From assembly GCA_024399065.1 (NCBI GenBank), contig JAKSIB010000012.1:1-64000 (forward strand): DNA of 64,000 nt. Direction: 5' to 3'. The notes under the pieces are model-generated. The model searched no databases. It worked only from the letters and a program-made list of their open reading frames with translations, and was not told the origin of the DNA. Both the position numbers and the translations under genes were made by a program. Below, piece by piece: positions 9,741 to 36,309 of this stretch. Positions within the stretch are counted from its first letter, which is position 1. Every line of letters begins with the position of its first letter. The stretch is from Fibrobacter sp. (lineage in GTDB: Bacteria; Fibrobacterota; Fibrobacteria; Fibrobacterales; Fibrobacteraceae).

Positions 9741-9769
9741 TGCTACGCAAAAAGAACGAGGCGAATGCT

Positions 9770-9795
9770 GCAAAAAATAACTTGTTATTTTTTAT
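9770..9795 (+). promoter_or_regulatory. A/T hairpin in the guaB leader
   Basis: AAAAAATAAC is followed within 2 nt by GTTATTTTTT, a perfect 10-bp stem ending in a T-run, inside the guaB leader. It resembles a weak terminator. It could be an attenuator or simply a spacer structure. No known purine riboswitch core is visible. Confidence 0.35.
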
Positions 9796-9820
9796 TGCTG
9801 AGCCGAGTACCTTTTCTTGA

Positions 9821-35126: not shown

Positions 35127-35145
35127 TCTTTTCTAAAGGATGTAT

Positions 35146-36009
35146 ATGAAAAAGCAACTTACTTTGTGCGCTGCAGCTCTCATCGCCATGGCAATGACTG
35201 GCTGCGAAAAGACCGGCACCATCGAAGGTGTTGTTCTTGATCCGTTTACTGGCAAGGCTATTGAAATGCCCACCGTTTGGATGGACTCTACCATCTACGG
35301 TACCCAGAACCCCAAGTATCCGTACAAGGGTGAACTCCAGCAGGGTAAGTTCAAGTTCGAAAAGGTTCCTGTTGGTCAGTATTTGATCAAGGCCCGTCGT
35401 TCCAAGTATGTTCTCGGTCAGTCCCGCATTGCCACTACCGATGAAAATCCGAACTTGAGCGTGACTTTGTACGAATATAGCGATCAGGTGAAGCCGGGTC
35501 TCTACAAGAGCGGCACCACCGAAGGTCCTGAAAAGATTGAAAACCAGTGGGTCGTTTATTCCACTAGCTGCAATGAATCCGTTGCAGGTTACCGTTTGAC
35601 CATGCCTATCAACACCGACGCCGCTAAGGTTCCGGGCAAGAAGGCTGACAAGAAGAAGAAGAAGGGTGCCAAGGAAGCTGTCAAGGTTTCCAACCTCCCG
35701 GCTCCGTTGGCAATGGGTTCTGCAATCGACGTGTTCTACGTCAATGCTAGCTCTGTTACTTCTCCGCTGGTTGCAACCCTTTACGCTGCAGTTGAAGGCA
35801 AGGTTGCTGATCATGCTGACTGTAAGGGCTTTGGCGCCGACGAAAAGACCGGTCTCTTCGTAGACAAGTCTAAGAGCGCAACTCTCGAAGTCGAATACAA
35901 GGCTGAAAACCTGTTCGAAATCAAGGGTAGCCTCATGTCTGGCAAGCAGATCATGCAGTTGTCTCAGGACGGCAAGACTGTTCAGACCTATTACTTTGAA
36001 GCAAAGTAA
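35146..36009 (+). CDS. lipoprotein with carboxypeptidase-regulatory-like domain
   Basis: A 287-residue lipoprotein. The lipobox AMTGCEK (Cys about 20) is followed by a small beta-sandwich domain (GTIEGVVLDPFTGKAIEMPTVWMDS to VPVGQYLIKARRSKY, about 24-90), similar to the carboxypeptidase regulatory-like fold. A Lys-rich run (KKADKKKKKGAKE, about 165) and a second beta-rich part follow. The function is unknown. The fold usually binds surfaces or sugars. I start at ATG 35146, with AAAGGA 5 nt upstream. The last codons (GCAAAGTAA) are duplicated in the hairpin region that follows. Confidence 0.75.
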   Translation: MKKQLTLCAAALIAMAMTGCEKTGTIEGVVLDPFTGKAIEMPTVWMDSTIYGTQNPKYPYKGELQQGKFKFEKVPVGQYLIKARRSKYVLGQSRIATTDENPNLSVTLYEYSDQVKPGLYKSGTTEGPEKIENQWVVYSTSCNESVAGYRLTMPINTDAAKVPGKKADKKKKKGAKEAVKVSNLPAPLAMGSAIDVFYVNASSVTSPLVATLYAAVEGKVADHADCKGFGADEKTGLFVDKSKSATLEVEYKAENLFEIKGSLMSGKQIMQLSQDGKTVQTYYFEAK

Positions 36010-36236
36010 GGTGAGTGTCGCTGCCATGCTTGCATGGCTATGACCGAGCCGCGCGGAGCTGCAGCGAAGCTGCAAGCAAAGTAACCGAAAACCGAGTGTC
36101 GCGCGAACACTTGTGTTCGCATGACCGACCTTTGGTCACTTAGTGCTTTAGCACTTATGTGATTCATGGCCACCTTTAGGTGGGGCGAGGATTACTGCGT
36201 TAGCAAGTAATAGCTCGTTGAGTTAAAATCTTTAAG
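35998..36236 (+). other. chain of seven stem-loops on a duplicated scaffold
   Basis: No gene is seen. Stems: GCCATG-CTTG-CATGGC (36023-36038), GCAGC-GAA-GCTGC (36061-36073), GCGAACA-CTTG-TGTTCGC (36103-36120), TGACC/GGTCA (36122-36138), AGTGC-TTTA-GCACT (36142-36155), CCACC-TTTA-GGTGG (36170-36183), and TTACT-GC-GTTA-GC-AGTAA with one bulge (36192-36210). The flanks GCAAAGTAA, GAGTGTCGC and ATGACCGA occur twice (about 36001 and 36076) around different stems that keep the CTTG loop. It may be the 3' untranslated region of the lipoprotein mRNA or a separate RNA. Confidence 0.75.
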
Positions 36237-36269
36237 AATCCGGTAACCGATGGTTGCCGGATTTTTTTT
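36237..36269 (+). terminator. terminator closing the hairpin chain
   Basis: AATCCGGTAACC pairs with GGTTGCCGGATT (12 bp, one G-T pair) around a 3-nt loop and is followed by eight T residues. The long distance from the lipoprotein stop (about 230 nt) means the stem-loop chain is transcribed. Confidence 0.9.
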
Positions 36270-36281
36270 GTGTCCTTGTCA

Positions 36282-36309
36282 AAAAAAATCACCTCAAGGG
36301 CGATTTTTT
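36282..36309 (-). terminator. hairpin after the DUF2334 gene
   Basis: An A-run, a short CC/GG-containing stem and a T-run make a symmetric element about 40 nt after the stop codon of the leftward gene. It could terminate both directions. Confidence 0.5.

Follow-up and report, generated by a model that had tools for sequence, protein, structure and literature searches.

Does the chain of hairpins that follows a lipoprotein gene in a Fibrobacter genome represent a structured RNA, or did it arise in some other way? The window (the whole 64,000-nucleotide stretch of contig JAKSIB010000012.1 that was analysed) contains the locus, and the original prediction read it as eight consecutive stem-loops on a duplicated scaffold, within which stems had been exchanged under selection for structure. 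In our assessment, the chain was probably built by a short mobile DNA element not catalogued before, of which it contains two clear insertions and probably also the remnants of a third.

Layout of the hairpin chain

The features of the locus are collected in Table 1. A frame of the form GAGTGTCGC–stem-loop–ATGACCGA does indeed occur twice (36013–36047 and 36094–36128), with 0 matches in 100 dinucleotide shuffles, and the inner stems differ (GCCATG/CATGGC versus GCGAACA/TGTTCGC) around the same CTTG loop. Further stems follow, namely, GCAGC-GAA-GCTGC, AGTGC-TTTA-GCACT, CCACC-TTTA-GGTGG and TTACTGC-GTTA-GCAAGTAA, and then a terminator (AATCCGGTAACC-GAT-GGTTGCCGGATT-T8). The frame needs small corrections: its second copy closes with ATGACCGAC, not GAG, and the spacing from GTAA to GAG is unequal, being 3 nt in one frame and 9 nt in the other. 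The minimum free energy (MFE) of 35980–36290 is −116 kcal/mol, against −87.5 ± 5.0 kcal/mol in shuffled sequences (z = −5.7, beating all 100); all of the stems are present, although the MFE fold pairs some segments otherwise than as eight separate hairpins. With the stop codon in front of it and the gene's terminator behind, the block is probably transcribed, as had been proposed; that terminator is part of the gene and is also found where the block is missing.

Table 1. Features of the lipoprotein locus and a further copy in the window (P1, outer helix; P2, variable hairpin; P3, second hairpin; CM, covariance model)
Feature	Position	Strand	Comment
Lipoprotein gene (289 aa)	35140..36009	+	Insertion target: its final codons and stop, AAGCAAAGTAA
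Target AAGCAAAGTAA, copy 1	35999..36009	+	Single in empty orthologue (L130)
Whole inserted block, relative to empty orthologue of G025 (L130)	36010..36210	+	
Element 1 core, GAGTGTCGC–stem-loop–ATGACCGAG	36013..36048	+	CM 49.6 bits
Element 1 P2, TGCCATG-CTTG-CATGGCT	36022..36039	+	
Element 1 P3, GCAGC-GAA-GCTGC	36061..36073	+	GNA-loop hairpins at equivalent position in other copies
Target AAGCAAAGTAA, copy 2	36074..36084	+	Target-site duplication of element 1
Element 2 P1 5′ arm, AAGTAACC	36079..36086	+	Inside target copy
Element 2 core, GAGTGTCGC–stem-loop–ATGACCGAC	36094..36129	+	CM 35.8 bits
Element 2 P2, GCGAACA-CTTG-TGTTCGC	36103..36120	+	
Element 2 P1 3′ arm, GGTCACTT	36134..36141	+	
Element 2 P3, AGTGC-TTTA-GCACT	36142..36155	+	
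CCACC-TTTA-GGTGG, then TTACTGC-GTTA-GCAAGTAA, last target copy AAGTAA at end	36168..36210	+	Sequence reading, no CM score
Native intrinsic terminator of lipoprotein gene	36234..36269	+	Outside element; also in empty L130
Further diverged copy, upstream of guaB-like gene	9749..9815	+	CM 50.3 bits, E 5.5e-14

Orthologous loci with and without insertions

The lipoprotein gene has orthologues in 74 of 80 genus genomes. That of G025, which encodes a protein 96% identical, has the stop codon, TAG and the terminator, with no block: its sequence runs GGCAAAG TAA TAGTTCACTGAG..., against GCAAAG TAA (block) TAGCTCGTTGAG... in our genome. Both elements are present in G024; G057 is without element 1 and has a single target copy at the position of 36074–36084; and in G040 only element 2 is found. 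The 11-mer of the stop-codon region, AAGCAAAGTAA, occurs once at the empty site, whereas sites with element 1 repeat it. Thus, the GCAAAGTAA of the scaffold is repeated because the stop-codon region was copied as a target duplication, and what had been interpreted as a local duplication within an RNA is instead the repeated insertion of a mobile element. The segment at 36168–36210 is probably, from a reading of its sequence, a decayed third insertion. Given that G025 is empty, though closest by protein, and the more distant G024 is filled, there has been loss or exchange as well as gain at this locus.

At a second locus, G045 is empty and reads ..GCGCGCAAATTTAGTAATTTT.. (GCGCGCAAATTTAGTAATTTTACG), whereas in G014 an element is bracketed by two copies of CGCAAATTTAGTAA. 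A third locus, with empty sites in G031 and G130, has AGTAGACAGT as the duplicated target. G004 and G047 carry additional elements, flanked by AAAA, as nested insertions. The element therefore inserts as a unit and duplicates its target, by about 10–14 bp at well-resolved sites and by 4–14 nt overall. Of 135 copies, 28 are flanked by exact repeats of 8 nt or longer, compared with 5.6 expected from permuted pairs, an imperfect control in that subfamilies are shared; at many copies, the repeats are missing or decayed. These gaps, the variable length of the duplication and ends that are not conserved in the manner of ordinary MITEs all count against a mobile element, as does the loss or exchange seen at the lipoprotein locus.

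Insertions often land immediately behind a stop codon on the sense side: of 106 copies, 23 are no more than 25 nt past one, against 2 in the mirror position (these counts use home-made gene calls with codon-usage scoring, as longest-ORF calls were misled by antisense ORFs). Such an orientation, together with the position upstream of the gene's terminator and the fold z of −5.7, would also suit a structured RNA selected for its fold, be it a protein-binding or stabilizing RNA in the 3′ UTR or a small RNA derived from it; the existence of empty orthologues of the same gene speaks against this. With a mobile element, any effect on the lipoprotein mRNA would be a by-product of its position between stop codon and terminator.

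At some insertion sites, the target reappears in inverted form as the 3′ arm of the outer helix. The clearest cases are the G014/G045 locus and the copy in Magasanikbacteria; the inversion is plain at the D locus (an exact match of 8 nt) and in element 2 of the lipoprotein locus, the 5′ arm of which reads AAGTAATC in orthologues, with the opposite arm changed to match. As a general rule, the inverted copy was rejected: it reaches at least 5 nt in 5 of 27 clearly duplicated copies, against 2.1 expected and a permutation maximum of 7.

Two associations were seen in passing. One subfamily lies directly beside parS-like TTTCACGTGAAA / TTCCACGTGAAA sites, with the target AAACA in common (L008, L062:4876, L077 and L032). 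Additionally, a larger dispersed repeat of ~150 nt (GCGTCGGCCAAGGTATTNTCTTCGCA ... CTCCGAGCTGGGGCCCCGCCCGCATGA), with many copies per genome, includes one hairpin element (L215–L229; G004 and G014).

Copy number and spread of the family

Loci with the same flanks and different stems, on which the original prediction depended, are common: compensating stems recur at many sites. With a relaxed pattern, ten genuine hairpin copies are found in the genome of origin, besides chance matches lacking hairpins, and a strict pattern has matches in 56 of 61 genus genomes, with 0 for the reversed-pattern control. Within the phylum, the strict pattern is limited to family f1 (genera g1, g5, g6, g7 and g11), the single match outside f1 being without a hairpin. 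A CM built from 54 sequences was used to score 150 candidates per genome, such that its counts are lower bounds: at least 59 copies in the genome of origin, at least 111 in G004, at least 24–58 in other genus genomes and at least 3–27 in four sister genera, with no copies found by this search in g3, g4, g8, g9 or the outer groups. The second site in the window, at 9749–9815, is just upstream of the guaB-like gene and may fall in its 5′ leader.

Most of the named host records are Fibrobacter MAGs of rumen or gut origin. Among the matches listed, an exact core with a good hairpin occurs outside the phylum in Candidatus Magasanikbacteria, Candidatus Peregrinibacteria, Treponema, a termite-gut spirochaete and an Oscillospiraceae MAG; the spread of the element is wider than these matches. 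There are 67 copies in the termite-gut spirochaete MAG and 6 in that of Peregrinibacteria, and the outer helix has a style of its own in each. Contamination of MAGs may account for single copies, and probably does so for the Clostridiales record, but it could hardly explain 67 spirochaete copies with a distinct flank consensus. In the Peregrinibacteria MAG, copies L465, L469, L457 and L462 share a distinct GGGTTCG..CC motif adjoining the element upstream, which is possibly a second hairpin peculiar to these copies.

Pattern searches of viral contigs gave 24 matches, none of them a convincing element, and nothing close to the family was found in Rfam at either gathering or relaxed thresholds. 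The core strings retrieved only chance primer matches among the literature matches listed, and no description of the family was found in the literature searched, in which subscription journals are thinly covered.

Structure, covariation and stem exchange

The folded strand is a long interrupted hairpin, in which a short helix by tandem G-A mismatches and a 4-bp helix with a bulged T are followed by a conserved GC/AT step, a variable stem-loop of 7–12 bp and, usually, a second hairpin. The core is preceded by GTAA, GCAA, TAGG, AAAA and others, and the outer arms vary between subfamilies. Standard pairs fill 94.3% of pair cells in the alignment of 54 sequences, as opposed to 72.1% after shuffling; both partners have changed in 13 of 18 pairs, and the covariation score is 0.58, against 0.09–0.12 in slid structures; the 17 invariant columns arise partly from the search pattern and should not be over-read. 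The core helix likewise covaries among CM hits (TC/GA 94, CT/AG 4, AT/AT 3, CC/GG 3 and CA/TG 3), which is supportive rather than independent evidence, as hits may depart from the search pattern but the CM itself favours pairs.

Strong compensatory change of this kind is what a structured RNA would show. An RNA selected for pairing should, however, favour G-U, and in P2 the wobble and the mispair are about equal (G-T 16, A-C 12), which favours a process at the level of DNA. The first pair of the outer helix points in the opposite direction to P2, with nine T-G and no C-A, as is also expected if the strand folds as RNA. Moreover, the copies lie in unrelated contexts, within ORFs and in pieces of pseudogenes, and there is no Rfam family. 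Taken together, these observations make a structured RNA quite unlikely, and leave the proposal of a small RNA gene at this locus unsupported.

Whole stems differ between copies yet remain paired. At one orthologous site (L062:2261 in G014 versus L097:1909 in G006), the two copies match in the outer helix and second hairpin but differ in the inner helix, the core pairs and the entire variable stem, each still being paired; the stem has likewise been replaced in place between L187:682 and L203, in this case across genera. P3 of element 2 also varies, from AGTGC-TTTA-GCACT here to GCGCTC-GAA-GAGCGC in G024 and G057, and GCACTC-GTA-GAGTGC in G040. The stems thus change as blocks, either through exchange with other copies or through copying of one arm onto the other. 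In a separate repeat of G014 (L230 and L231), the outer helix is swapped (AGTGCT/AGCACT versus AGAACT/AGTTCT) around the same core.

Arm-to-arm copying by template switching could in principle generate the palindromes unaided, with stems drifting as pairs in the absence of any recognition; the near-perfect stems, the lack of wobble bias and the quick stem changes at orthologous sites would all fit. As a sole explanation, we consider it unlikely: the unpaired core is conserved across phyla, the insertions are dispersed and duplicate their targets, and the mismatches of P2 are mostly A-G, retained at positions 2 (47 of 116) and 6 (21 of 116). Template switching may nevertheless act alongside mobility.

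A putative recombinase acting on a folded strand

The unit is likely to be a small non-autonomous mobile element of about 60–80 nt. As the mismatches are conserved and the stems are free, a trans-acting recombinase may recognize the folded strand through its conserved unpaired and mismatched bases; such recognition would leave the stem sequence free and the stems exchangeable as blocks. That the stems vary freely while the core stays the same in Fibrobacterota, a spirochaete and Patescibacteria suggests that shape, not sequence, is recognized, and the core could serve as bait for finding a new recombinase. More tentatively, and with rather less than even confidence, the family may exemplify a cross-phylum class of mobile DNA defined by the folded strand, with a fixed mismatch core, a putative recombinase and free stem cassettes, inserting by a hitherto undescribed copy-by-foldback process that would leave, at some sites, an inverted target copy between two direct ones.

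Retroposition, whether SINE-like or as a group II derivative, was rejected, as the reverse transcriptase domain RVT_1 was not detected in any of the six genus genomes tested. A REP-type element, moved by a RAYT or IS200-like Y1 transposase acting on single-stranded hairpins, would be consistent with the imperfect hairpin and its fixed mismatches, the small size, the dispersed copies and the GTAA/GCAA step before the foot in many of them, and some genomes do have Y1 genes. Y1_Tnp was, however, not detected in G014, G026 and G056, genus genomes with at least 24–58 copies, and Y1 transposition is not expected to give the target duplications that are seen. Furthermore, the ends of the Y1 genes examined carry no element, save for an insertion at one stop codon; we regard mobilization by Y1 enzymes as very unlikely. 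The gene concerned in that case (L162; G152:C22) is IS200-like, and the element inserted there has the duplication TTTCTGTAAAA. As for an autonomous partner, ORF translations in clusters L062 and L197 revealed only host genes and thrS pieces.

Relation to known elements

The closest known kinds are REP sequences, Rickettsia palindromic elements (RPE) and mitochondrial double-hairpin elements. RPE are non-autonomous and some of their copies lie in open reading frames, as do L064 and L105 here. The recognition proposed above would resemble that of integron attC sites, in which a folded single strand is recognized via fixed extrahelical bases and the stem sequence is free; unlike attC, the Fibrobacter element has no R-box GTTRRRY and apparently no cassette array. 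Mobile palindromes are usually defined by a conserved stem; in this family, by contrast, the stems vary most freely, and it is the mismatched core that stays constant. The family would account for a large share of the compensatory-looking intergenic hairpins of Fibrobacter, which might otherwise pass for structured RNAs.

REP/REPIN sequences are short palindromes tagged with GTAG or CGTC, many per genome and moved in trans (PMC3733652, PMC3116915). They share with the Fibrobacter element their size, number and frequent location downstream of genes, with some inside genes; the latter differs in having neither GTAG nor CGTC as a constant tag at the hairpin foot, in swapping whole stems, which do not define the family, in duplicating its target and in having no linked RAYT. 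Mitochondrial double-hairpin elements, or repetitive hairpin-forming elements, are likewise non-coding mobile units of one or two hairpins, whose tandem insertions give hairpin chains, but for those of Allomyces target duplication was reported to be lacking (PMC2800124); the Fibrobacter element is chromosomal, has a long conserved mismatch core and duplicates its target. Bacterial MITEs (PMC2229807) are also non-autonomous with target duplications, although here there are no conserved terminal inverted repeats, and neither an autonomous partner nor a transposase was found.

Copies within coding sequences

One orthologous pair of copies (L064 and L105) is in-frame within a long ORF. Several others lie in pieces of thrS, where they shift the frame. 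Splicing, translational bypassing and an intron were considered for these and rejected: each genome has an intact thrS in addition to the frame-shifted pieces, and hence no removal mechanism is needed. Alongside the one intact thrS per genome, many genomes have several 3′ fragments of the gene nearby or elsewhere (G000:C4:45993-68546, L249 and L250; also G140, G139, G144, G056, G009, G026 and G025). The intact thrS genes themselves vary in their C-terminal part, as if the gene had repeatedly undergone replacement or rebuilding.
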